Positions 639 to 35,716 of a DNA stretch of 37,470 nt are shown piece after piece (the stretch's first letter is position 1; each line of letters begins with the position of its first letter). The DNA is from a virus. Location: positions 1 to 37,470 of IMG/VR virus record IMGVR_UViG_3300006192_000016, one strand, 5' to 3'. The notes beneath the pieces are model-generated. The model searched no databases. It was not told the DNA's origin and was given only the letters and a program-made list of their open reading frames with translations. The position numbers and the translations under genes are program-made.

Positions 639-3600
639 CTACAGGTATATCAAAACCGACCCAGAATATCCGGTGTTTCTCAAGTAAGCATACAGCCGTG
701 ACGTGCCCGCAGGGACGTCTGACTCCAACCGGTAGCTGTCGTAATTTTTAACCACATACCCCGTCTGCGTGGTTATTTTAACAGCAAACCAAGTCAGTGT
801 GCCTATCGGTGCTATACGGCGCCCTCTGGGGTAAGGGGTTAGGTCAAACGTTGACACCAATCGTTCTGCCGTGCTTGAAACACCGGCGGCATCTATAGAC
901 CAAACCCGCATGACATCGCCTTCTATCTTGTTTGCGTAAATAGTCCCTTTCACATCGCAGTTTTCTTCCACGGTAATGTTGGCGATGCTGCCGCCTGCCG
1001 CCTGCAGCTTGTTGGTGCGGATTGTACCCGAGCTGTCGATGGTGGTGAACCAGTTGGACCCGAACATCGGATAGCTGCCGCCCGCTCCGAAACCCGCCTG
1101 ACCGGATTTGACATTGGTGGCGGTAATGGTCTCGGTGTTCAGGATGTCAATGGTCGCTTTGCGGATGACGGCATCACGAATGATCACCTGCCCCTGGTCT
1201 ATCGCGAAGACGGCCGTCTTGCCGACTGAGTTATCAAACACGAAGAACTGACTGGCGTTGACAATGACCTGGCTCTGGCCCGTAGCTTGGTCTGCGATCA
1301 GGCCGATGCCCGCTGTGATGTCTCCGGCTTGGGCTTTCACCGTCCACATAGCCTGTGCCCCGCCCTCCAAGTTCACGATTGCCTGTGAGTTCTGCTGGAC
1401 GGTCGCCATGGTCCCGTTGAGGCTGCTCTGGACGGTGGATATGGATTGAGACAGGGCCGAGTCCGCGTCCGCCCTTGTCAGGGCTTCCTGCACAATAGAT
1501 GCCTCCGCCTTAGACAGGCCCGTCTCAAATGACGCTTGAACAGTCTCGATCCGCTGTGCTAAGGCCTTTTGGTCATCCACTACAACGTTTAGGTCGGTCT
1601 TTATCTCGGCGCTTGACGTAAGCTGACGAATCTCCCCATCGAAATCTTTTATCGCATTCGACAACGAGGCTTCACCGCTTTTTACCAGCTCGGCTTTTAG
1701 GCCCTCACTTACAGAAGCCTGCGCGGCGTCCGCCGTGGACCTCGCCGCAGCTTCACTCTGGATCGCGGCATTGGCAGAAGCGATGTCTGCCGTGAACTTG
1801 GTGTCCAGAGCACTGATCTGCTGAGCCTGGGCGGCGTCCGCCGAGGACCGCGCAGTCGCCTCGTTCTGGATCGCTGCATTGGCAGAAGCGATGTCTGCCG
1901 TGAACTTGGTGTCCAGCGCCTGCGTGGCCTGCACCTGGGCCGAGTCTGCATCCGCACGGGCCACCGCTTCCTCCTGGATCGCGGCGTTGGCAGAGGCGAT
2001 GTCTGCCGTGAACTTGGTGTCCAGAGCACTGATCTGCTGGGCCTGGGCGGCGTCCGCGGTCGAACGAGCCGTCGCCTCCGCCTGGATCGCGGCATTGGCG
2101 TCAGACAGGCCGTTCGAGAACTTGGTGTCCAGCGCCTGGGTGGCTTGCACCTGGGCGGCGTCCGCCGAGGACCGCGCTGTCGCCTCGTTCTGTATCGCGG
2201 CATTGGCGTCAGACAGGCCGGTCGTGAACTCTGTGTCCAAGGCATTGATCTGCTGGGCCTGGGCGGCGTCCGCTGAGGACCGCGCAGTCGCCTCGTCCTG
2301 GATGGCAGCATTGGCAGAAGCGATGTCTGCCGTGAACTTGGTGTCCAGGGCATTGATCTGCTGCACCTGAGCGGCGTCCGCAGTGGACCGCGCGGTCGCC
2401 TCCGCTTGGATGGCCGCATTGGCCGAGGCGATGTCGGTCGTGAACGCCGTGTCCAAGGCATCGATCTGTTGCGCCAAGGAGGCGTCCGCCGTGGACCGCG
2501 CTGTGGCCTCCTGCTGGATCGCGGCATTGGCAGAGGCGATGTCCGTCGTGAACTTGGTGTCCAGAGCACTGATCTGCTGGGCTTGAGCGGCGTCCGCCGT
2601 GGCCCGCACGGTTGACTCGTTCTGGATGGCGGCATTGGCTCCCGACAGGCCTGTTGTGAACTCGGCATCCAGTGTTTCAATGCGGGAGGCCAGGGCTTGT
2701 TGTTCGTCTGCCAGGACAACCTGGCTGTCCTTGATGGAGGCCTCGGAGACCAAGCGCCGTTCTTCAGACTTGGTTTGCGCCGCCGCCACGCTCAACACCC
2801 CGAGGGCGGCATGTTCGGCCTTGGTGTCCACCAAGTCGATCGATTGCTCGATACTGGGGATCTTGCCGACCTCTTGCTCGATAGCGGGTATCTTGCCGAT
2901 CTCTTGCTCGATAGCGGGTATCTTGCCGATCTCTTGCTCGATAGCGGGGATCTTGCCGACCTCTTGCTCGATAGCGGGGATCTTTCCGACTTCGATCTCC
3001 AGCGCCGGCAGCTTGCCCAGGTCTTCTTGCAGCACGGGTGTCAGCTTGGAGCTGTCGATGAGACCATCCATCTCGTCCAGGATCTGCTGCGGGTCAATCT
3101 TGGTGCGGGCCTCCACGGAGTACCAGCTAGATTTGCCATAGGTGTTGACCGCCCGGATGAAATAAAAATAGGCGGTATCGATCGCAAGGCCTGTGTCCTC
3201 GATGAACACACCCTGGCCGGCCTTGAAGGCGTCGCTCTCTATCTCTGCCTCACGCAACGGCACACGAGATCGCCAGAACTCACAGGGGAAGGTGTCCACA
3301 GCCGCGAACTGAGGCGTCAGCACTATGCTGTTGCGGCGGGCGTTGACCAAGACGGACACAGGTGCTGGCGGGGGCCCGAACTCCACGGCCGCTCCGGGCG
3401 GCAGGCCTGTGCCAGAGTCGCCGATGGCGAAGGTGTGCTCGACGTTGGTCCACGAGCGCAGACCCCCCTTGGTGGCCCACAGTCGGAACCGGATCGCAGT
3501 GGTGTTGCTCGGCAGGATGTCCGCTTTCACCTCGAAACTGGTGATCACGGCGTTGCGCACGACGACCGCATTGGCCAGCCAAGCTCCCCCCACAAAGGCA

Positions 3601-5624
3601 TCCACCTCAAGGGTGTAGCTGGTGCCGGGCTCGGCCGGAACACTGCCACTTTCCCACGGCAGGATGACGGAGGTTTCCAAGATCCGGTTTCGCTCAGACC
3701 ACGAGAAGGCCAGGGGCAGCTGCTTGGCGGAGGGGAACAGGTCACCATTCACCCGCACGTTGGCCGGCGGATACGGACGGAAGGGGCGGTCGGACATAGT
3801 GCCCGAGATCACCGGCGCAAGGCTCGCCTGGAGTTGCCCTTTCGACGTGGTGGGCAACAGGCGGTAGTTCTGCGTCGCACCGTAGGCGGAGAGCTCCTCG
3901 TCGAACCCGTGGCGGTTGTCGTCTGTGATCCAGACCGGAGTGCCGGCGGGCCACTGGCGGGGGCTTGTATCCAGGCAACCGCGGCGCACCACGATCGCAC
4001 CAGAACTGGTGTCAGTAATGAGGCAGATCTCGCCGTTCTGCCCGCCGATGAACAGGTAGTTCCCCACCTCCGCATAGACGCGACCTTTCAGCCCGGTGAG
4101 GGACACCTCGCCCGTTACACCGATCGGCAGGATGTTGACCAACGTGGCGAATCCAACCGGCACGCGGTCGTAGCTGTTCTGCCATACCGGGCCCGTGCCT
4201 GCGATGTTGCCACGCTGCGCCTGCTGGACGTAGGTGTTGGTGTCCTTGCCTTCCGGGGCGGCCATAACCACAGGGTAAACGGCCGGGTACGTCAGGCTCT
4301 GAGCCCTGGTCTCCCCCAGTAGGCGGGCCACCATGAAGTAGGGTGCAGTCATCACCTCCCACGAGACGATCGGCTTGGGGTCCTCCGCGCTGCTCTGCCA
4401 GCGGTCCGGGTTCTGGGCGGTGTAGACCGCGGGCTGGCCGAAGACATCTTCCACCAGCGACGCACGGATCACCATGCTGTCGGGTGTCCCGTAGTCGATG
4501 GTCACCACCCGCATGACGATCTCGGAGAAGTTCAGCTCCTTCCAGTCCACCAGCTTGATGGCGTCACCTGGCAGCAGGCCGAACGCGCTGCGGTCGAAGT
4601 CCACGTCCACCTGCATCAGTGGCTTGGACGCTGCCTGTATTTCTCGCATGGCCACGCGAGTGGCGAGGCCTATGTTGCGGATCCCGTACATGTCGCGGCT
4701 GTCGGCCACGATTGCACCCTGAATGGTGATGTTGGCCGGGTCATGCACGGTGACGACCTCGGACTCTTCCGACTCAGGGTTTGTCCAGCTGACGTTGATC
4801 TCGTTGACGGTTTCATCCCAGCCTTTGCGTTGGGACGACCGAATGGTGCCCTGATTGCGGTTGAAGGCGGGCAGGGTAGCTTGGTCGTAGTCTTCGCGGA
4901 TCAGCTTGAAGTGGAACTTGCCGGTGCTCGGGTTGATGCACATTGTCCCGTTTATGTGGCGCAGGATCTCGGCGATGAAGCTCTCAATGGAGGCCTGCTG
5001 TGCCCACATCAGAGACAGGCCGAAACCTTCCGAGTAGAGCGTGTCGGCCACTTGCCGCATCTGGGCGTCGTCCAGGAATTTCGTGGCGGCGCCCATTCCC
5101 CAGTCGGTGTTTACCAGGCACTCCCGGATGATGTGCATCGGGTTTGCGTCACCGCTGATCATCGCCTTTTCGGGATACCAGGTGCCGGGCTTTGACCGCA
5201 CTTTCACCCACAGCGGTTTGAGATAGGGGTTGTTCGACGCCCACTTGAAGCCCGAGCGGCCGTCTGCCGAGTGGAAGAACAGCGAGAGGATGCCGCGATA
5301 GCCTGGCGCTTTGTCCCGGGCCAGGCCGATGAACTGGGCGATTTTTGAGGGGATAAGCTGGGTTGCGGCGCCGTGCAGAACGGTCATCGTCCCGGCGACA
5401 CCGCCCTCCTTCTTGTTGCCGCCGAACAGACCTTCATTGGAGATCGACACATTGTGCCCGTCGACGGCGCTACCGTCCGCCGGTGATGACGAGCCGGACC
5501 AGGCTACCTTCTCCCCTACCTTGATCTCCAAAACAGCATCCACGGGCCCGTGGCACACGCCGACGTGCGTGGCCAAGTAGTAGTCTGAAACCCGCGTTTT
5601 GCTGCTGCCGCCCCTGCTACCCAT
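639..5624 (-). CDS. Tail tip / central fibre protein, lambda J-like (host specificity)
   Basis: This 1661-residue protein is the last large gene of the tail module and should form the tip that contacts the receptor. The ATG at 5624 follows GAGGAG. The N-terminal ~500 residues resemble the hub domains of gpJ and GTA-type megatron proteins, followed by fibronectin-like beta regions (about 600-860). Six 10-residue repeats (consensus KIPAIEQEVG) follow, then nine 36-residue Ala-rich repeats (residues 984-1307) that must form a long coiled coil. The C-terminal ~250 residues contain a gpJ-type region around QSQVIVNASQFFVFDN, where a beta-rich fibre tip begins. It is longer than lambda J (1132 residues), mainly because of the repeats. 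Family assignment is by recognition, not by a search. Confidence 0.85.
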   Translation of the reverse strand: MGSRGGSSKTRVSDYYLATHVGVCHGPVDAVLEIKVGEKVAWSGSSSPADGSAVDGHNVSISNEGLFGGNKKEGGVAGTMTVLHGAATQLIPSKIAQFIGLARDKAPGYRGILSLFFHSADGRSGFKWASNNPYLKPLWVKVRSKPGTWYPEKAMISGDANPMHIIRECLVNTDWGMGAATKFLDDAQMRQVADTLYSEGFGLSLMWAQQASIESFIAEILRHINGTMCINPSTGKFHFKLIREDYDQATLPAFNRNQGTIRSSQRKGWDETVNEINVSWTNPESEESEVVTVHDPANITIQGAIVADSRDMYGIRNIGLATRVAMREIQAASKPLMQVDVDFDRSAFGLLPGDAIKLVDWKELNFSEIVMRVVTIDYGTPDSMVIRASLVEDVFGQPAVYTAQNPDRWQSSAEDPKPIVSWEVMTAPYFMVARLLGETRAQSLTYPAVYPVVMAAPEGKDTNTYVQQAQRGNIAGTGPVWQNSYDRVPVGFATLVNILPIGVTGEVSLTGLKGRVYAEVGNYLFIGGQNGEICLITDTSSGAIVVRRGCLDTSPRQWPAGTPVWITDDNRHGFDEELSAYGATQNYRLLPTTSKGQLQASLAPVISGTMSDRPFRPYPPANVRVNGDLFPSAKQLPLAFSWSERNRILETSVILPWESGSVPAEPGTSYTLEVDAFVGGAWLANAVVVRNAVITSFEVKADILPSNTTAIRFRLWATKGGLRSWTNVEHTFAIGDSGTGLPPGAAVEFGPPPAPVSVLVNARRNSIVLTPQFAAVDTFPCEFWRSRVPLREAEIESDAFKAGQGVFIEDTGLAIDTAYFYFIRAVNTYGKSSWYSVEARTKIDPQQILDEMDGLIDSSKLTPVLQEDLGKLPALEIEVGKIPAIEQEVGKIPAIEQEIGKIPAIEQEIGKIPAIEQEVGKIPSIEQSIDLVDTKAEHAALGVLSVAAAQTKSEERRLVSEASIKDSQVVLADEQQALASRIETLDAEFTTGLSGANAAIQNESTVRATADAAQAQQISALDTKFTTDIASANAAIQQEATARSTADASLAQQIDALDTAFTTDIASANAAIQAEATARSTADAAQVQQINALDTKFTADIASANAAIQDEATARSSADAAQAQQINALDTEFTTGLSDANAAIQNEATARSSADAAQVQATQALDTKFSNGLSDANAAIQAEATARSTADAAQAQQISALDTKFTADIASANAAIQEEAVARADADSAQVQATQALDTKFTADIASANAAIQNEATARSSADAAQAQQISALDTKFTADIASANAAIQSEAAARSTADAAQASVSEGLKAELVKSGEASLSNAIKDFDGEIRQLTSSAEIKTDLNVVVDDQKALAQRIETVQASFETGLSKAEASIVQEALTRADADSALSQSISTVQSSLNGTMATVQQNSQAIVNLEGGAQAMWTVKAQAGDITAGIGLIADQATGQSQVIVNASQFFVFDNSVGKTAVFAIDQGQVIIRDAVIRKATIDILNTETITATNVKSGQAGFGAGGSYPMFGSNWFTTIDSSGTIRTNKLQAAGGSIANITVEENCDVKGTIYANKIEGDVMRVWSIDAAGVSSTAERLVSTFDLTPYPRGRRIAPIGTLTWFAVKITTQTGYVVKNYDSYRLESDVPAGTSRLYAYLRNTGYSGSVLIYL
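1704..2675 (-). repeat. Nine tandem 108-bp repeats coding 36-residue coiled-coil units
   Basis: Nine consecutive in-frame copies, each 36 codons, lie inside the tail tip gene. A typical unit starts ALDTKFTADIASANAAIQ and ends with ADAAQAQQIS or a close variant. Most change between copies falls at a few positions (D/E/N/Q before EA; S/T after AR; QQIS, QQIN or QATQ at the end). The array gives a shaft of fixed period whose length could change by slippage or unequal recombination. Confidence 0.9.
2841..3015 (-). repeat. Tandem 30-bp repeats coding KIPAIEQEVG-type decapeptides
   Basis: About six in-frame decapeptide units precede the 36-residue repeats in the tail tip gene. Four central copies are nearly identical at DNA level (core ctcttgctcgatagcgggga on the plus strand). 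The Ile/Leu spacing suggests a short helical linker between the beta-rich hub and the coiled-coil shaft. Confidence 0.85.
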
Positions 5625-24801: not shown

Positions 24802-26288
24802 AGCATGTCCTCCATCGCTTCTCGTTCTTTTTGGCGCTTGCGGGCAAGGCGTTTGAGTCGCTGGAACAGCCATTCTTGGGTGTCCCGTTTCTCTTTGAGG
24901 CGAACTACCACTTTCTCGTCCGCCGTGCCTTTCGCCACCAGGTGATAGAGCAACACCTGCCTCGTCTGGCCCTGGCGGTGCAAGCGACCGATCACCTGCT
25001 GGTATGTCTCGAGGCTCCAAGGGATGTCGTAGAAGATCATCACCCGCCCGCCCTTTTGCAGGTTGAGGCCATGTCCTGCGCTCTGCGGGTGGACCAGTAG
25101 CTTCTTGATCTTGCCCTTGTTCCATGGTGTCACGGCATCTCCAGACTTGTCCATGGCGACGGCATCTGGGAACCGGGCCAGCAGGCGCTCCAATGTCGGC
25201 TTGAAGTGATAGACGATCATCACATTCTCCCCATCCAGTTGCTCCAGTAGGGCCTCCAGAGCGTCCATCTTGTGGTCGTGCAGCTGGTGGGCCGTGCGGT
25301 TGAGCTTTGGTTTGCCATTCACCAGCTCTCGTTCTGAGTGGTAGATGAACCCGGACGCCATCTGCAGCAGCTTGCTTGCCAGGGTGGCGGCCGTCTCAGC
25401 CTCGATGACCAGCGATTCGCCATCCTCTTGAATAACCTCTGTCAGGAAGTCCTCTTCCATCGCATTGTAGCGGCTCATCTCAGCGTCAGAGAGGTAGACA
25501 GGGCTTTCGATGTGTTGCGGCTGTTTCATGTCCAGGTAGTCTTCCGCCTTCATGACAAGGCAGATGTCCTGGATCTTGGACGTGATCTCCTCCTTGGCCC
25601 CTGGGCGCAGGTCCCACTTCATCGACCAGCGGTTCTGGGTGAAATACTTTTCCCGGTAGCTGGTGACTGTCTTGCCGAGTCGTTCGCCCTGATCGAGCAG
25701 GTAGATCTGGGCGAACAGGTGCAGATATGACTCGGCCGCCGGTGTGGCGGTCAGTTGAACCATGCGCTTCATATATTTGCGGACATTCTTGAGCGCCTTG
25801 AACCGCTTGGTTGTGTGGTCCTTGAACGCAGAGCTCTCGTCGATGATCACCATGTCGTATGGCCATTTGGTGCGCCACTGGTCCACCAGCCACTCCACGT
25901 TCTCCCGGTTGATGATGTGGATGGCGGCCTTGGACTTGATGGCCTGAGCCCGGGTCTTGGCGTCCCCTGTCAGCACCTGATAGTTCATGCAGCAGGTGTG
26001 CTCCCACACGCTGAACTCGTCGGGCCAGGTCTTGTTGGCCACCTTCAGCGGGGCGATGATCAGCACCTTGTTCACTTCGCCGTTCATCAAGAACTCGGCC
26101 GCTGCCGTCATGGCGGTGACCGTCTTGCCCAAGCCCAGGTCAACGAACAGGGCACAGAACGGGTTGTCGCGGATGAACTGCAGGGCCGTGTGCTGGTAGG
26201 CATGCATGTCGCTCTCGACACGCTCGACGTTTTTGCGGCGGGAAGCCCGCCACTTGTCAAAAGAAGTCCAGATCTGATTTCGCATCAT
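24798..26288 (-). CDS. SNF2/DEAD-like helicase of the replication module
   Basis: This 496-residue superfamily 2 helicase has motif I DLGLGKT (50-56), motif II IIDESS (D-E-S-S), motif III LTATP, and motif VI QQVIGRLHRQGQ, all in the SNF2 order. It probably remodels DNA during replication or recombination. The start is uncertain: ATG 26288 overlaps the VRR-NUC gene by 32 bp and has no clear ribosome site, while ATG 26207 (MHAYQHTALQF) better matches typical family starts. The C-terminus is basic (RLKRLARKRQKERE). Pairing with DUF2800, DUF2815, PolA and VRR-NUC genes is a recurrent phage replication module. Confidence 0.9.
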   Translation of the reverse strand: MMRNQIWTSFDKWRASRRKNVERVESDMHAYQHTALQFIRDNPFCALFVDLGLGKTVTAMTAAAEFLMNGEVNKVLIIAPLKVANKTWPDEFSVWEHTCCMNYQVLTGDAKTRAQAIKSKAAIHIINRENVEWLVDQWRTKWPYDMVIIDESSAFKDHTTKRFKALKNVRKYMKRMVQLTATPAAESYLHLFAQIYLLDQGERLGKTVTSYREKYFTQNRWSMKWDLRPGAKEEITSKIQDICLVMKAEDYLDMKQPQHIESPVYLSDAEMSRYNAMEEDFLTEVIQEDGESLVIEAETAATLASKLLQMASGFIYHSERELVNGKPKLNRTAHQLHDHKMDALEALLEQLDGENVMIVYHFKPTLERLLARFPDAVAMDKSGDAVTPWNKGKIKKLLVHPQSAGHGLNLQKGGRVMIFYDIPWSLETYQQVIGRLHRQGQTRQVLLYHLVAKGTADEKVVVRLKEKRDTQEWLFQRLKRLARKRQKEREAMEDML

Positions 26289-26544
26289 CGAAATTGTCCC
26301 ATACTCGAACTATTGCGCCGTGTGCCCGCATCTCTTTGTGTCGAAGGAGCTGCTGCGGGGTGGGTATCTCTCCGGGGCGCTTGATCTCCCCGAACAGGTG
26401 GACGCCTTTTCTGATAAACAGGCGGTCTGGTACCGCCCGTTTACCTGGTGAGGTGAACTTGGCCACCCACCAGCCCGTCGCTTCCGCCCATTCCCGAATG
26501 TCCTTTTCAACCTTCGACTCTCGAATGACAGGTGGTTTGGCCAT
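26257..26544 (-). CDS. VRR-NUC domain nuclease
   Basis: This 95-residue protein is a stand-alone VRR-NUC nuclease of the PD-(D/E)xK fold. Catalytic elements are KRAVPDRLF (Asp), GEIKRPG (Glu and Lys), and PTPQQLLRHKEMRAHGA, followed by a VRVWDN strand. Phage VRR-NUC proteins are thought to cut branched DNA such as Holliday junctions. The ATG at 26544 follows AAGGA, and the frame overlaps the helicase gene. It begins 3 bp after the end of the polymerase C-half gene. Confidence 0.92.
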   Translation of the reverse strand: MAKPPVIRESKVEKDIREWAEATGWWVAKFTSPGKRAVPDRLFIRKGVHLFGEIKRPGEIPTPQQLLRHKEMRAHGAIVRVWDNFDDAKSDLDFF

Positions 26545-26546
26545 GG

Positions 26547-27365
26547 TTAATCCTTGCGATAGTGTGATCCGACAAAGCCTGCCGCTCCGAGAGGTAACCC
26601 TGGCGCCCAGCTGATCGGAGCTGTCATGCAGCGATGGACGAAAGCCAAGGCCTGCTCATCGTCCGCCTCTTCGTCAACCTCGTTCACCAGTTCGTCGTGG
26701 ATGTGCATCACGGTCTCAATGTCCCAGGGGAGGTGCTCATGGCTCAAACCGTGCTTGTCTACACGGGACATGCCGATCGCCAGGACATCACGGGCGACGG
26801 CCTGGACAATGTTCTCAACCAGTTTGCCGCCGTGGGAGTAGACCCTGACCCAGCCATTGCCTTGCATCGGCTTGGACATGTAGCTGAAATTGGCCTTTGT
26901 GTACTCCTCCCCATCTTTCCCTTTCATGGTGCGCTGTTCCATCTTCGGGTCGAAGTAGTAGAGCCGGCGCCCGGACGGGAGCTTGATGCACAGGAATGGC
27001 TTGCGATATTCGATAGTCAGCGGCAGCTCGTAATCCGGTCCGTCGTCGCAGCGGCGGATGACCTTCACATCCTGCTTTGTGCTCAGGCAGCGCTTCACGG
27101 CATTCTCCAAGGCATACCAGGTCTGCACTATCTCCGGGCACAGCTCGCGAAATGCCTGCACGGATGAATGGGCCTCCTCCTTGGTCATGAAGACGCCCAT
27201 GTTCTCGCCGTAGGCCCACAGGCCGGTCTTCTTGCCGTCATCCATGAGGTCCCCACCACCTAATCGGTAGCCGCAGTTGTGCGCCACTGCGACTTCACCT
27301 TCGCTGTTTCGGACCATGAATCGGTTGCGGGGCCCCGCGTTTATGATGTCGTAGACTTTAGTCAT
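26547..27365 (-). CDS. Family A DNA polymerase, C-terminal half, preceded by C-intein
   Basis: This 272-residue protein starts at ATG 27365 (10 bases after GGGAG). Its first 30 residues are a C-terminal intein half: block F VYDIINAGPRNRFMV and block G VAHN, ending before Cys31. From CGYRLGGG on, the sequence is polymerase: the rest of motif B and motif C (HIHDE, residues 221-225). It cannot act alone, because motif A and half of motif B are on the other gene. Trans-splicing with the N-half should give about 698 residues. Its start overlaps the GIY-YIG gene end by 8 bp. The gene in which the split lies is identified by motifs A, B and C; splicing itself is inferred. Confidence 0.92.
   Translation of the reverse strand: MTKVYDIINAGPRNRFMVRNSEGEVAVAHNCGYRLGGGDLMDDGKKTGLWAYGENMGVFMTKEEAHSSVQAFRELCPEIVQTWYALENAVKRCLSTKQDVKVIRRCDDGPDYELPLTIEYRKPFLCIKLPSGRRLYYFDPKMEQRTMKGKDGEEYTKANFSYMSKPMQGNGWVRVYSHGGKLVENIVQAVARDVLAIGMSRVDKHGLSHEHLPWDIETVMHIHDELVNEVDEEADDEQALAFVHRCMTAPISWAPGLPLGAAGFVGSHYRKD
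27276..27365 (-). other. C-terminal half of a split intein
   Basis: Thirty codons encode block F (VYDIINAGPRNRFMV) and block G (VAVAHN), with the conserved penultimate His and last Asn, followed by Cys as the first residue of the C-extein. It starts with its own ATG and ribosome site. Length agrees with known split inteins (about 30-40 residues). Confidence 0.93.
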
Positions 27366-28167
27366 TGGTTACAAACTCCCAGTCGGGTGATGGCGGGTAC
27401 GGCGCTTTGCCATTCAATCGGCGCGACATGGTGGCAATGCTGACCCCATGTTTTTTACTAGCAGAAGTGAGTGAGTCAAAAACCTCACCTGTCGGCTTAT
27501 GCCTGACTCTCTTTTTAGTTTGCTCGGCCACCTTGGCTTGCGCGGCTCTTGTCATTGCTAGAAATGCCGGGTCTGCCATCTTGGCGATCATACGGGCTCT
27601 AGATTTTTCCCTGAACTCAGGTGTCCTCGTCGCTTTAGCCGCCGCTTCTTTTCGCCGCGCCTCAATGTCCGGGTCCGCCCGCAAACGACGCATTGATTTC
27701 GTGCCTGAAGATCGCAATATCGCAGACCCCTCTTCGGTCTTCGCCCATTTGCGCCACGCTTTGAGTGCCTTCTCACGATAAACAGGATCTGTGAATTCAG
27801 ACCCGGCATCGGGCCTACTAGCCCCGAGAAGAGGCGTATCAACCGGCGCTAGTTTGTTGAAAGTCTTAACGCCTTGGCGTCGATACATATCAAGGATCGC
27901 TTGTTCCATGCGGGTTAAATCGTCTGTGGATGAACACCGTGCGATCATTGCGAACTCGAAGGCGTCCTCTCCGTGCTTATTGAACGAGCTCTGCAAATGT
28001 TTGTTGCAGTGATTTCCTTTGCGTAGGAATTTCCTGTGATCAGTTACCCGCTGCCCGACATTAACGGACTGCCCTATGTAGACAGCCCCAGTTCTCGTGT
28101 TTTTAATCCGGTAGATGCCGGCTCGCCCATCCGAATACGGAACCCACGTCTGCGCTTTCTGCTTCAT
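27358..28167 (-). CDS. Free-standing GIY-YIG homing endonuclease between polymerase halves
   Basis: This 269-residue protein starts at ATG 28167, after GGGGA, overlapping the N-half gene by 65 bp; its stop overlaps the C-half start by 8 bp. The nuclease domain has GIY (17-19), YIG (30-32), a downstream Arg/His region and a catalytic Glu (in RMEQAIL). The middle has two or three NUMOD-like segments (DPVYREKALKAWRKW; TPEFREKSRARM), and the C-terminus is a NUMOD1-type HTH (ASKKHGVSIATMSRRLNG), as in Seg-type phage enzymes. It should cut intein-free polymerase genes and drive spread of the whole insertion. It is not fused to the intein, unlike normal homing inteins. Confidence 0.92.
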   Translation of the reverse strand: MKQKAQTWVPYSDGRAGIYRIKNTRTGAVYIGQSVNVGQRVTDHRKFLRKGNHCNKHLQSSFNKHGEDAFEFAMIARCSSTDDLTRMEQAILDMYRRQGVKTFNKLAPVDTPLLGASRPDAGSEFTDPVYREKALKAWRKWAKTEEGSAILRSSGTKSMRRLRADPDIEARRKEAAAKATRTPEFREKSRARMIAKMADPAFLAMTRAAQAKVAEQTKKRVRHKPTGEVFDSLTSASKKHGVSIATMSRRLNGKAPYPPSPDWEFVTND

Positions 28168-29734
28168 GCCAATTTTCCCCGTCGAAAAACTTATGATCAG
28201 GTGTGCATTCGACGCCGTTGAAGTCCATAGTCTCCTTGTCGCCCATGTACTGGACGCCGCCGTGTGCAACCCACTCCTCTCCGTCCCAGAGCAGATCGTC
28301 ATCGGCGACGTCTACTATGGGCACCCAGCCACGGTTTGTCAAAACCTCGACGCTCGGCGCTAGGCATCCTAGAGTAGCAGGTTTTGCTTTGCTTCGGTGA
28401 GGTTTTGTTTCTCCATAGGGGAGATTTAGCCATTCGCCAGCGAACGCTCGGTACAAGTCTTTTCCGGACTTCAGGGTGTCCATGAACCATTTGCAGTTGG
28501 TGATCCAGCCGATTACTACCGATTCAATGGATGACAGGTCACACACCACGAACTTCTTACCTTCGCCGGGGACGAACGCTGAGCGGATGCACCCTGTTAG
28601 TGTGTCCATCGGTTCACCGTTCAGCAGCTGCAGACCGGACAGGTCCCCTGCGCGGATCATCTCGTTGGCCCAGCTGAGGGGGGTTACGTCCTCGAGCGCC
28701 TTCGGCGTGCGCGGCAGGTTCTGTGTCTGGATCCGGCGACCCGCCCAGCGGCCTGTGCGTGATGCACCGTGGAACTGCAGGGAGAAGCGGAACCGGCCAT
28801 CTTCACCGGACGCGTCCAGCATGGTCTGGTACTTGGCCAGGCTGCTCTTGTTGGAGTTCTGGCGCATGCGCAGCACGTTTACCGCGACCGGCTCGATGCC
28901 GTTATGGTCGGCCTCACGGATCACCTTCTTCACGGTGTCCGCCCGCAGGTCTTGGAACGGGTAGCCGTTGGCCTGCAGCCACGGGAGCAACTGCGGGGTT
29001 GACCCGGGGTTCGCACAGCCGGTGATCCGCTTCATCTGGGCAATGATGGCCGGCTTGCGCCGTTCCGCCAGGGCGAGCGCCTGCTTGGCGAAGTGCGTGT
29101 CGATCTGCACACCACGGTCATTGATGCGTTGGTCGATGGCGTACATGTGCCACTCGCGCTCGGGAATAGGGTATTTGTCGCTGTCCAGCTTCGCCTTGAT
29201 GGCCATCTCGGATACCACGTCCTGCCGGTTGTATCCGCCGAAACTGCTCCACTCTTCCGGGTTGGTCAACGCGTCAAGCCAGCGGCAAGGCTGGTTCTTA
29301 GTCGGTTTCTTTGGCTTGCAGAACATCTGGATCAGCTTCTTGCCCTCATCCAGTTTCAGTTTGTCCTGCGGCAGGCCCATCGCCTTGCCGATCATCGCGA
29401 GGTCTCCAGAGAAACCCATCATGTAGGCCAATATCATGGTGCAGCGCCAGCTCTCGTATGGCGTTTCGATACCCCACCGGCGCAGCGTCATGATGCGCTC
29501 GAACTGAGCGTTGAACGCCCACTTCACGACATCGGGATCAGCTAGTGCCTCTCGCAGCTCTGCTGGTGGGCGTTTGCTCTCGGTGATGTCCCAGTATTGG
29601 ACGCGGCCACCGTTAACCGACCATGCGGACATGATGATCTCGGTTGACGGGTCTGCAGAATAGCGGTCAAGTCCGTATTTTTTGAGGTCCACTTCGGAAC
29701 GGGATTCGAAGTCGAGGTTGATGAAGTCGGGCAT
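28103..29734 (-). CDS. Family A DNA polymerase, N-terminal half, followed by N-intein
   Basis: This 543-residue protein holds the 3'-5' exonuclease domain: motif I LDFES (D8, E10), motif II around FNAQFE, motif III YNRQDVV. It also holds polymerase motif A (CDLSSIE, Asp at about 399) and the first part of motif B (HRSKAKPATLG). At residue 457 it changes to an 87-residue intein half starting CLAPSVEVLTNRGWVPI and holding block B TPDH. Motif C is missing. The ATG at 29734 follows AGGA. Exonuclease, then polymerase, then intein order leaves no doubt that it is the front of one split polymerase gene. The HNH gene lies 16 bp upstream. Confidence 0.93.
   Translation of the reverse strand: MPDFINLDFESRSEVDLKKYGLDRYSADPSTEIIMSAWSVNGGRVQYWDITESKRPPAELREALADPDVVKWAFNAQFERIMTLRRWGIETPYESWRCTMILAYMMGFSGDLAMIGKAMGLPQDKLKLDEGKKLIQMFCKPKKPTKNQPCRWLDALTNPEEWSSFGGYNRQDVVSEMAIKAKLDSDKYPIPEREWHMYAIDQRINDRGVQIDTHFAKQALALAERRKPAIIAQMKRITGCANPGSTPQLLPWLQANGYPFQDLRADTVKKVIREADHNGIEPVAVNVLRMRQNSNKSSLAKYQTMLDASGEDGRFRFSLQFHGASRTGRWAGRRIQTQNLPRTPKALEDVTPLSWANEMIRAGDLSGLQLLNGEPMDTLTGCIRSAFVPGEGKKFVVCDLSSIESVVIGWITNCKWFMDTLKSGKDLYRAFAGEWLNLPYGETKPHRSKAKPATLGCLAPSVEVLTNRGWVPIVDVADDDLLWDGEEWVAHGGVQYMGDKETMDFNGVECTPDHKFFDGENWHEAESADVGSVFGWASRHLPD
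28106..28366 (-). other. N-terminal half of a split intein
   Basis: Eighty-seven codons, from Cys1 (28366) to the stop of the polymerase N-half. Block A is CLAPSVEVLTNRGWVPI. Block B is GVECTPDHKFF with the conserved T-x-x-H. With the C-half the total is 117 residues, the size of a mini-intein without endonuclease. The insertion follows PATLG in polymerase motif B. Confidence 0.93.
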
Positions 29735-29750
29735 TGTGGGTGTCCTATGG

Positions 29751-30482
29751 TTATTTGTTTTTGTATGCCTTCAGTTTTCTACAAAGAGCGGCCGGGCTTA
29801 TCCCAGCCTCACGTGCTATCTGCGCTTGGCTCTTTTTGCCTTTCAGGGCCTCTTGTATGACCAGTTCCCATTGCCAGTTTTTCAACTTTGCCGCTGGGTT
29901 GTTTTCACCGGACACACCGTTCTTGGCTACGGCCGTTGGGTCATCCCGCAGGGCAATAGCTTCTTCTAGCGTTGTTGTTGACCCAAGAAACTCTCGCTTT
30001 CCGGTTGCCCTGTTATACCGTCTGGCTCGGTATTTCTGAGTTTTTGCGTCAAAGCTGATGCCCTTTTCTCCGGTTTTGTTTTTTCGGTCCCTTTTGTTCA
30101 AGGCTTGCGCCTTGTACGTGGCCCACCGGCAGTTGTTTGGGGCGTAATCTCCGTCGTTATTTACCCTGTCCAATGTCATCCCTTCCGGCCTCTCGCCCAT
30201 ATCTCGCAAAAATGCTTGGAAGGACCTGTCCCATCTGGGACACACTTTTATTCCTCTCGCTCCATAGTTTTTATAACTTATGTGTTTTTCATTTTGACAC
30301 CGCGCTCTCATCGTTATCCACGTTGGGTACAAAGGGTGTGTCTTGTTGCCCCCTCCGTACTCACGCTCCCTCTCTACCTCCAAGGTTCCGTACTTCTTAA
30401 TGCGCCGATAGTGTTTCTGGCACATCCCTTTTGCGTGGATTTTGTCCGTGCATCCGTCTACTTCACACATCTCGATGTGCAT
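29751..30482 (-). CDS. HNH/AP2-type homing endonuclease
   Basis: This 243-residue protein has an N-terminal zinc-binding-like set (CEVDGC ... CQKHY), an HNH core (TLDRVNNDGDYAPNNCRWAT), an AP2-like DNA-binding segment (GISFDAKTQKYRARRYNRAT ... REFLG) and a C-terminal helix-turn-helix (SQAQIAREAGISPAALCRKL). Such phage enzymes are free-standing homing nucleases. The ATG at 30482 follows GGGGAG. It sits between the terminator of the DUF2815 gene and the polymerase N-half, so it may have its own promoter (a TATAGT hexamer lies at about 30525). Its target may be in or near the polymerase gene of related phages (inference). Confidence 0.88.
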   Translation of the reverse strand: MHIEMCEVDGCTDKIHAKGMCQKHYRRIKKYGTLEVEREREYGGGNKTHPLYPTWITMRARCQNEKHISYKNYGARGIKVCPRWDRSFQAFLRDMGERPEGMTLDRVNNDGDYAPNNCRWATYKAQALNKRDRKNKTGEKGISFDAKTQKYRARRYNRATGKREFLGSTTTLEEAIALRDDPTAVAKNGVSGENNPAAKLKNWQWELVIQEALKGKKSQAQIAREAGISPAALCRKLKAYKNK

Positions 30483-30540
30483 ACCGACTCCCCGTTTACC
30501 CGTGGCCCTTGTTCAACGCCTACTATAACCAGTGGTTGGG

Positions 30541-30569
30541 TAAAAATAAAGCCTGCGATTGCAGGCTTT
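30541..30569 (-). terminator. Rho-independent terminator after the ssDNA-binding gene
   Basis: Perfect 9-bp stem AAAGCCTGC/GCAGGCTTT with a 4-base loop. On the minus strand it is followed by ATTTTTA. It lies 20 bp after the DUF2815 stop and upstream of the HNH gene, which separates the two. Confidence 0.85.
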
Positions 30570-30589
30570 TACTATTTACTGTTTAGGCT

Positions 30590-31228
30590 TTACAGGTCAT
30601 CATCGTCGTCATCGGACGGCTTAGACTTCTTGCCGCTGGACTTCGGCGCTTCATCGTCGTCATCCCACAGCTCGTCATCGTCGATACGGCCTTCTCCGAA
30701 CTGCTCGCCGTCCGCACGGAACTTAACGGAAAGCAGGTTCGCGTTACATCTGCGACCGAAGCTATTATCTTGAAACCACGGTCGGATGATGATATCCACG
30801 TAGCAACCCGGATAGATAACATCGGCGATCTCATCGACCTCAAGCAGGTCACCGTTGCCATCGCGGACCTTCGGACGCTTGGTTTCACGGGCCGAAATGG
30901 TCCACATGCCCTCGCACTCTTCCTTGTCGCTGTCATCACCGTTCTTGATGAACAGCTTGTCCTTGGACACCTTGGCGTTTTTGTTGGCCTTCTTGAGGTC
31001 TTCGATAACCTCAAGGCAGGCTTCCTTGACTTCCAAGTGGGTGGACTTATCCGCAAGACCCAGGATGGAGAACTTCGGCTCACCGCCGTCATCCCCTGCA
31101 TAGGGTTTGTCCAGGTGCGGGTAGCTGGCACGGACGTTCAGGATCTTGATGATGCCGCCCTCGTAGAGAGCGCCGATCACTTCAGAGCCGTTTTTCAGTT
31201 TGCGGATAATCGCGGGGCCTTTTGCCAT
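30590..31228 (-). CDS. ssDNA-binding protein, DUF2815 family
   Basis: This 212-residue protein resembles the DUF2815 phage proteins, thought to bind single-stranded DNA like T7 gp2.5. Clues are the beta-rich core (IIKILNVRASYPHLDKPYAG; SVKFRADGEQFGEG), the GCYVDIIIRPWFQ strand and a strongly acidic C-terminus ending SKPSDDDDDDL. Acidic tails of this kind in SSB proteins recruit partner enzymes. The ATG at 31228 follows AAGGA. It is encoded between the DUF2800 nuclease and the polymerase and ends in a terminator. Identification is by recognition and context. Confidence 0.85.
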   Translation of the reverse strand: MAKGPAIIRKLKNGSEVIGALYEGGIIKILNVRASYPHLDKPYAGDDGGEPKFSILGLADKSTHLEVKEACLEVIEDLKKANKNAKVSKDKLFIKNGDDSDKEECEGMWTISARETKRPKVRDGNGDLLEVDEIADVIYPGCYVDIIIRPWFQDNSFGRRCNANLLSVKFRADGEQFGEGRIDDDELWDDDDEAPKSSGKKSKPSDDDDDDL

Positions 31229-31270
31229 TTTACTGTCCTTACCGTTTTATCGGTTTAATCGATCTACTTG

Positions 31271-32635
31271 TTACAGCTCGTCGTCTTCATCGTCGAACAT
31301 CCCCTCGTCATCCCAGAGGGTTTCTTCATACGCTTCCAACTCAGGGCGCTTGTCCGACAGGGGCACCAGTGTGGGTTTCCCAGCCGGCTTTCTCACATAC
31401 CGTTCCAGTGCCTCGTGGGCCACCTTCTTCGGTAATTTGAGCTCGTTCCGCAAAACCTCCTCCGCCTGGGTCGGCGACAAGATCTTGCGAGTGTAAATCT
31501 GGTCCTCTTCGAGACCGTAAAGGATCAACAGGTCGGCGGCCTTGGCCTCGTCTACATACTCGCGATTGGTGCGGGCCTCAACCAGCTTCATCCCCGGCAC
31601 CTTCTCGCCTTCCAAGGCTCGGCGCTCCAGGTTCTCATCCATGGTGCGCCACCACGACTCTACCAGGCGGCGGTATGGCCGCAGCTTGGCCAGTTGCTCT
31701 GTTGTAAATCTGCTCACGTCTGCGGGCCTCACTCTGTATTTGCCGCGGCCGATCCAGTCAGCGAACTCGTCCAGTTCTTCGCCGGTGTATTCCCGGCCAA
31801 TGTCCTTGAAGTTGCCCTCAATGAGAGCGTGCTGCAGTCTCGCCAGGGCAACACAATCGGACTTGACCTTGCACCACTGGCAGGCCTTCTCGCCGGGGCT
31901 CCTTGGGGCATTTGGCTGCCATGCGGCGGCGGCCCGTGCCTTGAGATAATCAGAGAACTCCAGTAATTCAGCCCTGCTGATCGTCCAGCTGTCGAAATGT
32001 CCGAGCCGTGGCTGGGCAATCCGCATCTCGATCACTTCGAAGTGATAGAGATGGTCGTACTTCAGGAAGAACCCGAGGGCATAAATCCGCGCCTGAGTAT
32101 TCCCCTCCGCAAACACCTGGATCCCTTTCCCATATTTCAGGTCGGTGATCACCAGTTTGCCCGGTTGGCACGCTGCGTGGTCAGCCGTTCCTGACTGGTT
32201 AGGGAGCGGTGTCAGCTCGCTGAAGAACACCCTGGTTTCGGTGTAATGCTCACCTGGTTCGAACATGCACCAGTCAACGTACTCTTGGACATAGTCCATC
32301 ATGACTTGGGTTACAGGTATCTCGAACCTAAAACCTCGCTCCTCAACGACCTGTACGGTGCCTAGGAGCTCTTTCGGCTTCCGGCCTGACCTCAGCCATG
32401 TCTCAGCGACGAAATGCGCCACCGTGCCTTCTGCGGCTTCTGGCGAGGTTCTGTCCTCTTCCATCATGTTCGCGATAAGGCTTCCGGCGCAGTGAAGCCA
32501 CATTGCTGAACCGGACGGTGAAAATACTGAGTGCCCTGATTTGTTTATTTCCTCGGCCAGTTTGGCTAAGGCTGTCTTGTCGGTGATAAGTCTGGCCTTT
32601 CGGCCAGACTTACGGATGCGAGGTGTGACCGTCAT
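31271..32635 (-). CDS. PD-(D/E)xK nuclease, DUF2800 family
   Basis: This 454-residue protein is a DUF2800 phage nuclease. Early features are SPSGSAMWLHCAGS and AAEGTVAHFVAE; the catalytic part includes GTADHA and VITDLKYGKG (Asp and D-x-K). Four cysteines, one in LHCAGS and three in CQWCKVKSDC, fit the C...CxxCx5C iron-sulfur layout of AddB/Cas4-type nucleases. It probably resects or processes DNA ends during recombination-dependent replication. The tail is acidic (MFDDEDDEL). The ATG at 32635 overlaps the upstream stop as TAATG. The next gene down is the ssDNA-binding protein, a logical partner. Confidence 0.88.
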   Translation of the reverse strand: MTVTPRIRKSGRKARLITDKTALAKLAEEINKSGHSVFSPSGSAMWLHCAGSLIANMMEEDRTSPEAAEGTVAHFVAETWLRSGRKPKELLGTVQVVEERGFRFEIPVTQVMMDYVQEYVDWCMFEPGEHYTETRVFFSELTPLPNQSGTADHAACQPGKLVITDLKYGKGIQVFAEGNTQARIYALGFFLKYDHLYHFEVIEMRIAQPRLGHFDSWTISRAELLEFSDYLKARAAAAWQPNAPRSPGEKACQWCKVKSDCVALARLQHALIEGNFKDIGREYTGEELDEFADWIGRGKYRVRPADVSRFTTEQLAKLRPYRRLVESWWRTMDENLERRALEGEKVPGMKLVEARTNREYVDEAKAADLLILYGLEEDQIYTRKILSPTQAEEVLRNELKLPKKVAHEALERYVRKPAGKPTLVPLSDKRPELEAYEETLWDDEGMFDDEDDEL

Positions 32636-33177: not shown

Positions 33178-35628
33178 CTATAACTCATCGTCGTCATCAT
33201 GCATTCCACTGTCGTCGAATCCGGCAGGCGCACTACCGGCCAACGGTGGCATGTTGAACACCCGCCGTCCGCCATGTGTCTTGCGCGACTCGCCCGCTAG
33301 GCGTCTTAGGATGTTGCCTGCCGTTCTGGCTAGCATCTTGGTGGGATTCTTGTAGCCGATCACCTTCAGCACTTCGGTCGCGGTCATACGGGCGCCCTCC
33401 CATTTCTCCTGGGTGTCGGACGCTGACTTGTAGTGGTTTGGTGTCCAGTCGAACTCCTCCAGGATCGCCTCTTCAATCGGGTCTGTGCTCTCGTGGTCAC
33501 GGTTATGCTCGATGAGCGCCTTGTTTTCCTCGGCGGTGAGCCACCACTGTTCTCCGCCTCGGTACAGCTCGTACACTTCAGCCCACAGCTGCTGCATGTC
33601 GATGTCATGATCGTGGTGGACAGCGGTTACCGGGATAGTCCACCAGCGGGTGTTGCCGGTCTCGTCGACCAGGAAGTTATGCTCGTTCACCGATGCAAAG
33701 AACACCGTGCGGCGGGCATACTCCGATGCCCTGCGGTCATAAGGCATCCGCACTTTATCTGTGCCCTGGGACACAAACGCCTTCATCCGGGCGATGTCTG
33801 ACCTGCGAAACGTCGCATCCAGTTCGCCCAGCTCGCATACCCAGTGGGTGAGCGCGTTTATCACCGTGTCCTTGTTATCCGGGTCAACAGCAACGCCCTC
33901 CATCACCAGGTTCTGGTCTTCTGGCCCGAGCCGGAGCGCCCAGCGCGTCTTGCCCATGTACTGGCCGCCAACGAACACCAGGACGCCGCGGGCCTGCCGA
34001 CGTGCGTTGCCCCCGTCGACCCCCATGGCGACGGCCGAGACCAGCCAGCGGCGGATCAACGTCTCTTTGAGCCGCAGGTTCATAGGGCTTTCCACGGTTC
34101 GGTAGAGGTCTTTGAGGCGCGAGACCCCGTCCCATGGCTTCGACTTGACCCACTCTTCCACCGGGTTGTAGCGGTTCTGATCCGCCAGGGTGCGCAGGAA
34201 CTTGTCCGTTGAGGCCGTGGACATGGTGTTCAGGCTGCACAGCGACTCGACGACATAGAGCTCGCAGTTGGCCCGGTTGTCCATGCTGAATGCCTTGCCG
34301 ATACCGGTCAGGCGCTGCTCTTTGCGGATCTCATCGTAACGGCAGGTGATCCCGTATTCGTTGAGGAGATATGCCATGTTGTCGATGGTGTTAAGGGGTG
34401 TGCCGCGGTCTGACAGATTCGGGAACCCGAACTTGTTGATCGGCTCGGAAAGGTCTATGCCGCTGGACTTAACTCGCTCCCATGCGGCATTCGCGGCCTC
34501 TTTGGCTTGCGCTTCAACCGCGTGGCTCAAGGTCAGTTTGGCGAGGCGTTTGCGCCACACGTCCCATGTCTCTTTGGTTTCGCAACGATTGAAGCCCGGG
34601 ATCACCTTCTCCAGGGCCTTCTTGTCGTCTTCTGCCCACTTCACCCACTTTCGGATATCGTTGATCTTCGACACAGGCGTGTCTTTAGACACGGCCACTC
34701 GTCCGAAATTGCCGTTATCCCACTTGTGCTCGAATGCGTCTTCGTCGAAGTTCGGGGCTTTGGCCGACCAAGCGCGGGCCAGCTCCTTGAACTCATCAGG
34801 CTCGCGTTCGCCGTCCTTGATCGCCGCCAAAACTGCCACCCAGCGGCCGTACTCCGTCTCCGCTGGCAATTTTTCAAGAAATCCGGCCAGTTCCTCGACC
34901 GTTCCGTCCCAGGTGTCTCGCAGATCCTCGGTGAGCTCGTCTTCCTCGTCGAAATCGGCGTCCAATACCGGCTTTTCAGGTTTTTTGCCGATCACATGGC
35001 CACGGGTTGGTGAGGCTTTCGGGTCTTTTTCCCAGCCTTGCGCCTTCGCAAGCGCATCAAACTCGTCGCAAATCGCACGGGCCGCAGGGAGATCGATCTC
35101 GTTCAGGTCGAAATTGGCGTCGTGGTTGAGCGGGCTGTCACCGTTTGGCCATGTGAATGGCTTGCCTGTGCCGGGGTGGGTGCCGAAGGCTACGAACTGT
35201 TGACCGTGGCCCAAGATCTCCACGGCGCAGCGATCACCGTCATCGTTGATCCAGGTGTGTGATTTAACCTTGGCAAATGGCTTGTCTGTCCGATAAACCA
35301 AGAGTTTCTTGGGGGCCCGTCCGATCCGCAGTGGCGCGGGCCCGAGCAGATCGACAACAAACTCGGCCATCTGGTCGGACAGGGCTTTGTCCAGGACGTC
35401 AATATCGACAGCTGGGGTGTGCGCCGTGTTAATGCCGATCCCGCAGTGCGCCCTGGAGTGGGCCCACTTCGTGATGTCCTCTTCGGTTGCGGTGTGTTCC
35501 TGCCACCCTTTGAGAGCGGGGGCTTTGCCTGGACTGGAATGGTCTTTGGCGTCGTGGGGGACTATCGGGAGGATGTTGAACCCATTTTCTATCAGGGTTT
35601 TCCCGTACTCTTTGAAATTGTTCGCCAT
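33178..35628 (-). CDS. Primase-helicase: prim-pol domain plus VirE-type ATPase
   Basis: This 816-residue protein starts at ATG 35628 (MANNFKEYGK) after GGAGA. Residues 1-230 look like a bifunctional prim-pol domain (FNILPIVPHDAKDHS; PAVDIDVLDKAL, with the D-x-D metal ligand; VEILGHGQQFVAFGTHP). A middle region (EYGRWVAVLAAIKDGEREPDEF) resembles a PriCT linker. The C-terminal half is a virulence-associated-E (VirE/VapE) ATPase with Walker A GGQYMGKT and downstream ELGELDATFRRSD. It likely opens and primes phage DNA. The end is HDDDDEL. It is the first enzyme gene of the replication module. Confidence 0.9.
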   Translation of the reverse strand: MANNFKEYGKTLIENGFNILPIVPHDAKDHSSPGKAPALKGWQEHTATEEDITKWAHSRAHCGIGINTAHTPAVDIDVLDKALSDQMAEFVVDLLGPAPLRIGRAPKKLLVYRTDKPFAKVKSHTWINDDGDRCAVEILGHGQQFVAFGTHPGTGKPFTWPNGDSPLNHDANFDLNEIDLPAARAICDEFDALAKAQGWEKDPKASPTRGHVIGKKPEKPVLDADFDEEDELTEDLRDTWDGTVEELAGFLEKLPAETEYGRWVAVLAAIKDGEREPDEFKELARAWSAKAPNFDEDAFEHKWDNGNFGRVAVSKDTPVSKINDIRKWVKWAEDDKKALEKVIPGFNRCETKETWDVWRKRLAKLTLSHAVEAQAKEAANAAWERVKSSGIDLSEPINKFGFPNLSDRGTPLNTIDNMAYLLNEYGITCRYDEIRKEQRLTGIGKAFSMDNRANCELYVVESLCSLNTMSTASTDKFLRTLADQNRYNPVEEWVKSKPWDGVSRLKDLYRTVESPMNLRLKETLIRRWLVSAVAMGVDGGNARRQARGVLVFVGGQYMGKTRWALRLGPEDQNLVMEGVAVDPDNKDTVINALTHWVCELGELDATFRRSDIARMKAFVSQGTDKVRMPYDRRASEYARRTVFFASVNEHNFLVDETGNTRWWTIPVTAVHHDHDIDMQQLWAEVYELYRGGEQWWLTAEENKALIEHNRDHESTDPIEEAILEEFDWTPNHYKSASDTQEKWEGARMTATEVLKVIGYKNPTKMLARTAGNILRRLAGESRKTHGGRRVFNMPPLAGSAPAGFDDSGMHDDDDEL

Positions 35629-35716
35629 CTGTGTCTCCAGCTGGGAGTATGCACAGTTGCTGAAGCGCCCTATCAGGGCTACTATCGACTCCGTGCATGC
35701 CACATGCGTGTTTTAG

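Follow-up and report, generated by a model that had tools for sequence, protein, structure and literature searches.

Naturally split inteins are key tools of protein engineering. In 2009, to go by the title of their paper, Dassa et al. reportedly described new split inteins (gp41-1, NrdJ-1, IMPDH-1 and others) and, within a fractured gene, a homing endonuclease; that endonuclease is said to belong to a new family, not GIY-YIG, and the host genes to be other than the one treated here. The fractured nrdHF gene of AceL NrdHF, on a phage-like contig, carries a split class 3 intein for which trans-splicing has been shown, and a putative GIY-YIG homing endonuclease gene (HEG) lies between the intein halves, so that this kind of arrangement has already been published (PMC7891396). 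A DNA polymerase intein, Aes123 PolB1, is the parent of the CL and CLm inteins and is already put to use (PMC13014065). Division without inteins is known from gene 43A/43B of Aeromonas phage 25, with seg43, and from nrdA of phage Aeh1, with mobE, where the halves reassemble without splicing (PMC2988022). In the ShiLan domain, a phage insertion is open in the frame of its host gene and an HNH endonuclease is hidden out of frame (PMC11855218). The locus described here lies on the minus strand of IMG/VR virus record IMGVR_UViG_3300006192_000016, which was analysed over its full length of 37,470 bases (hereafter the window). It consists of two genes for the halves of a family A DNA polymerase and a GIY-YIG HEG between them. 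The polymerase is very probably assembled through a class 1 split intein, with homing by the GIY-YIG enzyme and an origin from a contiguous intein.

The gene order is a 543-codon polymerase/N-intein gene, a 269-codon GIY-YIG gene and a 272-codon C-intein/polymerase gene, in three reading frames. The N-half (29734..28103) encodes 456 amino acids of polymerase, the N-extein (28367..29734), followed by an 87-amino-acid N-intein (28106..28366; CLAPSVEVLT...CTPDH...RHLPD) that begins with Cys1, carries T-P-D-H as block B and ends before a stop codon at 28103-28105. The HEG (27358..28167; 269 amino acids) is in the +1 frame relative to the N-half and overlaps its end by 65 bp by coordinates (28103..28167); a Shine-Dalgarno-like GGGGA (28176..28180) is found 5′ of its ATG, within the N-intein coding sequence. 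A second such site, GGGAG (27376..27380), lies within the HEG and 5′ of the ATG of the C-half (27365..26547), whose start codon shares an 8-bp overlap by sequence with the HEG stop codon (ATGACTAA; 27358..27365). The C-half opens with a 30-amino-acid C-intein (27276..27365; MTKVYDIINAGPRNRFMVRNSEGEVAVAHN), which has its own ATG and runs from VYDI (block F) to AHN (block G). The C-extein that follows (26547..27275, stop codon included) comprises 242 amino acids of polymerase with Cys+1 first (codon 27273-27275) and motif C as HIHDELV. The original prediction had proposed an 87-residue N-intein with blocks A and B and TPDH, a 30-residue C-intein with blocks F and G and His-Asn before Cys, and a GIY-YIG gene overlapping its neighbours by 65 and 8 bp, all of which hold at these coordinates; the joined protein, put at about 698 residues, is exactly 698 amino acids long when computed from both halves.

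There are 23 stops in the N frame between 28105 and 27343, and 13 in the C frame ahead of the C-half ATG, the nearest of them 6 nucleotides upstream. These stops rule out a single-frame gene interrupted by one frameshift. With three frames and Shine-Dalgarno-like sites before both the HEG and the C-half, the three genes are separate, as had been claimed. The intein halves are located on genes that no single frame can join, as in a split intein, and the GIY-YIG gene separates the halves of a polymerase that is intact in Aeromonas phage phiWae15 and in L005, as in a fractured gene with a HEG.

Both intein parts were recognized by profiles built from the inteins of other phages, with the window left out: each profile matched one open reading frame (ORF) of 907, at E=1.2e-26 for the N-intein and E=4.2e-12 for the C-intein. 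The search of the halves against phages that had been suggested revealed a large phage intein family, as tblastn with the N-intein returned 342 phage records, with DNA polymerases predominating among the matches listed and the Pol intein of Pseudomonas phage MR14 matching at 49% (8e-16). In an alignment of 12 splicing domains of relatives, Cys1, the Thr and His of block B and the terminal Asn are invariant, and the window has the class 1 motifs C1, TPDH and AHN/C (here and below, a slash marks the splice junction). A mini-intein of 109 amino acids from the same family, about 40% identical and a relative rather than the window intein itself, was predicted with a predicted local distance difference test score (pLDDT) of 97; almost all of the best PDB matches of this model are inteins, among them gp41-1, Npu DnaE and AceL NrdHF, which points to a Hint fold in that family member. 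The NCBIfam model intein_Nterm scored the N-intein at only 13 bits, below the cut-off, and phmmer against the PDB gave only E=0.3, hence the need for family-specific profiles.

The same polymerase is uninterrupted in phiWae15, the nearest named relative found for the window, and in an IMG/VR contig in L005, both with zero inserted bases at the site. The N-extein, which matches phrog_17 DNA polymerase at 6e-85, shares 93% identity with phiWae15 residues 1-456, and the C-extein 95% with residues 457-698. The N-extein ends in ...HRSKAKPATLG, and the break falls after the Gly in RSKAKPATLG/CGYRLGG. In the alignment, this stretch corresponds to motif B of Klenow (AKAINFGLIYGM), which is the fingers O-helix; unspliced halves would therefore have no continuous O-helix. 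The ratio of nonsynonymous to synonymous substitution rates (dN/dS) of the exteins is 0.061 and 0.053 for the window and 0.052 between the intein-free sisters, without stops, and the exteins are thus under normal purifying selection (dN/dS of about 0.06). Together with the intein profiles, the O-helix site and the selection on the exteins support trans-splicing, the explanation offered in the original prediction, as what would best account for the locus. A primase-polymerase/VapE-like gene at 33178-35703 in the window could suggest that another polymerase serves the phage and that the interrupted one is dead or decaying; this is very improbable, as the dN/dS of the split exteins equals that of the intact sisters, no stops have accumulated and neither the motif A nor the motif C region is disrupted. 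Phage AVP3 has an intact polymerase, yet also a primase-polymerase/VapE-like gene. At the junction, 120 nucleotides form the most divergent stretch of the gene, with 40 differences compared with a mean of 16 (reached by 0 of 2000 shuffles), and the +1 residue is Cys in the window and Ala in intein-free close relatives. Both features are suggestive of co-conversion of the flanks; Cys also occupies this place in more distant uninterrupted polymerases.

The product of the HEG matches Pfam GIY-YIG (1.7e-10) and the catalytic domain of I-TevI (1MK0; 3e-9), with the motifs G17IY and Y30IG and with Arg40 aligned to I-TevI Arg27; the catalytic Glu lies beyond the alignment and is presumed. AlphaFold of this protein alone gave a pLDDT of 50. 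No relatives of the HEG were found in a search of IMG/VR, and the best phage match has about 30% identity over 70% of the query, with similarity mostly confined to the catalytic domain. The HEG scores 58.1 bits against TIGR01453, the model of group I intron endonucleases (cut-off 56.05), and the depositors of Sodalis phage SO-1, a relative, annotated the endonuclease gene nested in its intein under the label of a type I intron. It is nonetheless hardly credible that the insert in the window is excised from RNA as a group I intron bearing a GIY-YIG ORF: Rfam gave no match up to E=5 in 25500-31500, and hence no group I intron core, and intein blocks are encoded at either end of the insert, in the frame of the adjoining extein.

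Relatives of the intein were surveyed in IMG/VR, GTDB genomes and phage records by means of conserved peptide patterns, a survey that was not exhaustive and whose counts are lower bounds. At least 195 distinct N-inteins were classified, of which 184 are contiguous, 7 have N and C parts in different open frames and 4 are cut by a contig end. Among the contiguous inteins, 148 have at least 250 amino acids and the other 36 have 106-186. An HNH profile matches another frame in 148/148 of the full-length contiguous inteins (+2 in 77, +1 in 71), a figure that is partly circular since the profile was built from 35 of the same out-of-frame ORFs, and an in-frame HNH domain occurs in none of the 148. 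Neither the PHROG match nor the substitution pattern depends on this profile. Every member of a diverse set of 35 out-of-frame ORFs matches phrog_374, HNH endonuclease (best 5.6e-61), whereas the in-frame middles match no HNH family, and BLASTP similarity was found for 95% of out-of-frame ORF pairs compared with 19% of in-frame middles. The longest out-of-frame ORF averages 254 amino acids, compared with 79 after codon shuffling (99 distinct full-length inteins of the first survey), and in 98 of these 99 at most 1 of 200 shuffles reaches the real length. Counted by HEG codon position, substitutions between near relatives number 914/702/2080 and 581/388/1445 in the intein middle; in the splicing part, they follow the intein frame instead (485/325/974 and 231/172/648). 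ORF length, similarity and substitution pattern together support coding in the out-of-frame HEG frame and, with the HEG out of frame within an open intein, one DNA segment would encode two proteins. The window has the splicing domain of this family but departs from its architecture through its broken intein frame and its GIY-YIG HEG.

Nested HNH genes are present in phage SO-1 (L085), MR14 (L086), Salmonella phage VT223 (L089), L087, L090-L092, L036-L038 and L040-L045, among others, and are unannotated in the records of MR14, EBPR siphovirus 2 and VT223. In VT223, the intein-bearing polymerase is named 'endonuclease', probably by way of its PHROG label, and its in-frame part is without a nuclease. 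Three in-frame middles match phrog_93 'endonuclease'; these are taken here to be misnamed intein-bearing polymerases, because the intact polymerase of VT223 bears that label. Many phage polymerases thus hide an endonuclease gene that annotation has missed or misnamed. No description of out-of-frame HEGs in true inteins was found, and a 2025 preprint on non-canonical actinobacteriophage inteins may cover the topic. Two inteins of this family occur at different sites in each of the polymerases of L090 and L092, and the family is also found in an SNF2-type helicase gene, at site QIS/CG, in L091 and, judging by flanks, in L127 and L174.

Split inteins with an HNH gene between the halves are found in L098 (polymerase site QIGKV/CDLS) and L100 (KLCEN/CVQA). 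The N and C parts share one frame in each, with seven stops between them in L098 and five in L100, as would be expected if stops had broken a contiguous intein; the N- and C-intein parts of the window, unlike these, are in different frames. L303 is split at polymerase site RSGRF/SGRI, with its N-intein at 1511 and its C-intein at 2184, and the ORF between them (1752-2169; 138 amino acids) was assigned to no family and has no HNH match. The L303 polymerase has a second, contiguous mini-intein as well. L181 (2237-2628) shares the split site of L303; no gene separates its parts, and their open frames overlap by about 35 nucleotides. A frameshift error could account for this split. Two further loci, L216 and L331, are probably nested copies with a frameshift and were left aside. 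In L216 (Eubacterium plexicaudatum ASF492; 3000-3926), the frameshift comes soon after block A and the HNH ORF is intact, the result of either decay or sequencing error. Since contiguous relatives with nested HEGs are common and these two resemble frameshifted copies, the window might be a contiguous intein with an out-of-frame HEG that merely looks broken through an assembly or sequencing error. Such an origin is even less probable than decay of the polymerase, as 23 stops in one frame and 13 in the other would demand many errors, the C-half is provided with an ATG and a Shine-Dalgarno-like site of its own, and L098 and L100 show the same plan independently. Among the members surveyed, the window is the sole split with a GIY-YIG gene.

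The net charge of the N-intein is -14 in the window, below that of all 184 contiguous inteins, and -12 and -9 in L098 and L100, compared with a mean of -5.0. In all three splits that carry a HEG, the charge difference between the halves is also high. The comparison is a single after-the-fact test on few cases. The extreme charge of the N-intein fits the charge-driven assembly of split inteins (PMC13014065) and is one more sign that the intein has adapted to being split. The main rival to trans-splicing is that the split enzyme works without it, as a non-covalent two-subunit polymerase in which the intein remnants are relics, comparable to gp43A/43B of Aeromonas phage 25 and NrdA of Aeh1. Phage enzymes that function in split form without splicing are known, and the halves of the phage 25 enzyme purify together, with activity (PMC2988022). 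This is still improbable for the window, where both intein halves keep their catalytic residues and a strong family score, the break inside the O-helix would place extra residues in the active site on each half, and the N-intein charge is extreme in the direction expected of active split inteins.

In trans-splicing, the two polypeptides would join through the class 1 split intein of 87 + 30 amino acids, and Cys1, the His of TPDH, the last Asn of the C-intein and Cys+1 would yield a 698-amino-acid polymerase with a complete O-helix. The GIY-YIG enzyme presumably has a translation start of its own between the two halves. Its probable targets are polymerase alleles without the intein, into which repair after cutting would copy the split intein and the HEG. 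The origin most likely lies in a contiguous intein of the phage family with an out-of-frame endonuclease; its fracture would have consisted of the loss of the intein frame and the gain of a separate C-half start, and the usual HNH gene of the family would have been replaced by a GIY-YIG gene in the window. Because the HEG is independent of the intein frame, loss of that frame and a start codon for the C-half would turn a contiguous intein into a split one. On balance, a large phage intein family, whose HEG lies out of frame inside an unbroken intein, has probably fractured about four times independently, the window being one of these cases; if true, this is a route by which natural split inteins could evolve. 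The path is testable, as a single family includes contiguous inteins with an out-of-frame endonuclease gene, mini-inteins without one and several independent splits.

Several points weigh against this account. The split state amounts to four changes (window, L098, L100, L303 and L181) on a splicing-domain tree that has 100 columns only and weak support. The intein-free sisters, phiWae15 and L005, themselves diverge above average at the insertion site (0.044), so that co-conversion is not the sole explanation for the divergent junction. Close relatives of the HEG are absent from IMG/VR and the phage records, so its mobility cannot be traced. Splicing, cutting, homing and the order of events are deduced, and the locus comes from one metagenomic contig.

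A 243-amino-acid HNH endonuclease gene (29751-30482, minus strand; phrog_374, 6e-45) is located directly upstream of the polymerase in the window. A gene of equal length occupies this position 5′ of the polymerase in phiWae15, although the polymerase is uninterrupted there. Kinship with phiWae15 suggests Aeromonas as the host of the window virus; AVP3 and other relatives are assigned to the Casjensviridae.

The suggestion of the original prediction that this may be a new case stands for the combination of a family A polymerase, a split intein and a GIY-YIG gene, which was not found elsewhere in the literature and records searched; it does not stand for the kind of arrangement, which is known from AceL NrdHF and Aes123 PolB1. 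AceL NrdHF likewise has intein halves on two genes with a putative GIY-YIG HEG between them (PMC7891396), but it is a class 3 intein (Ala1, internal Cys) of 98 + 48 amino acids in a ribonucleotide reductase, whereas the window intein is class 1 (Cys1), with 87 + 30 amino acids, in a family A polymerase. Aes123 PolB1 is also a naturally split DNA polymerase intein, divided at the position of the homing endonuclease (PMC13014065), but it belongs to another intein family, being a cysteine-less Serine-1 intein of 120 + 39 amino acids in PolB, family B by name. The contiguous Pol A inteins of MR14, EBPR siphovirus 2, Sodalis phage SO-1, Jerseyvirus and APSE are of the same family as the window intein, with 38-49% identity to its N-intein, and are likewise inserted in motif B; a separately encoded HEG is present in those checked (MR14, EBPR siphovirus 2, SO-1 and VT223). 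They differ in having a single open frame with an HNH HEG nested out of frame. The ShiLan domain lacks the splicing motifs of inteins and is not believed to splice, whereas the family described here is a true intein, with a predicted Hint fold. In Aeromonas phage 25 and Aeh1, as in the window, a replication enzyme is split in association with a homing endonuclease gene, but neither has inteins. To the natural split inteins, the window adds a short class 1 example of 87 + 30 amino acids.

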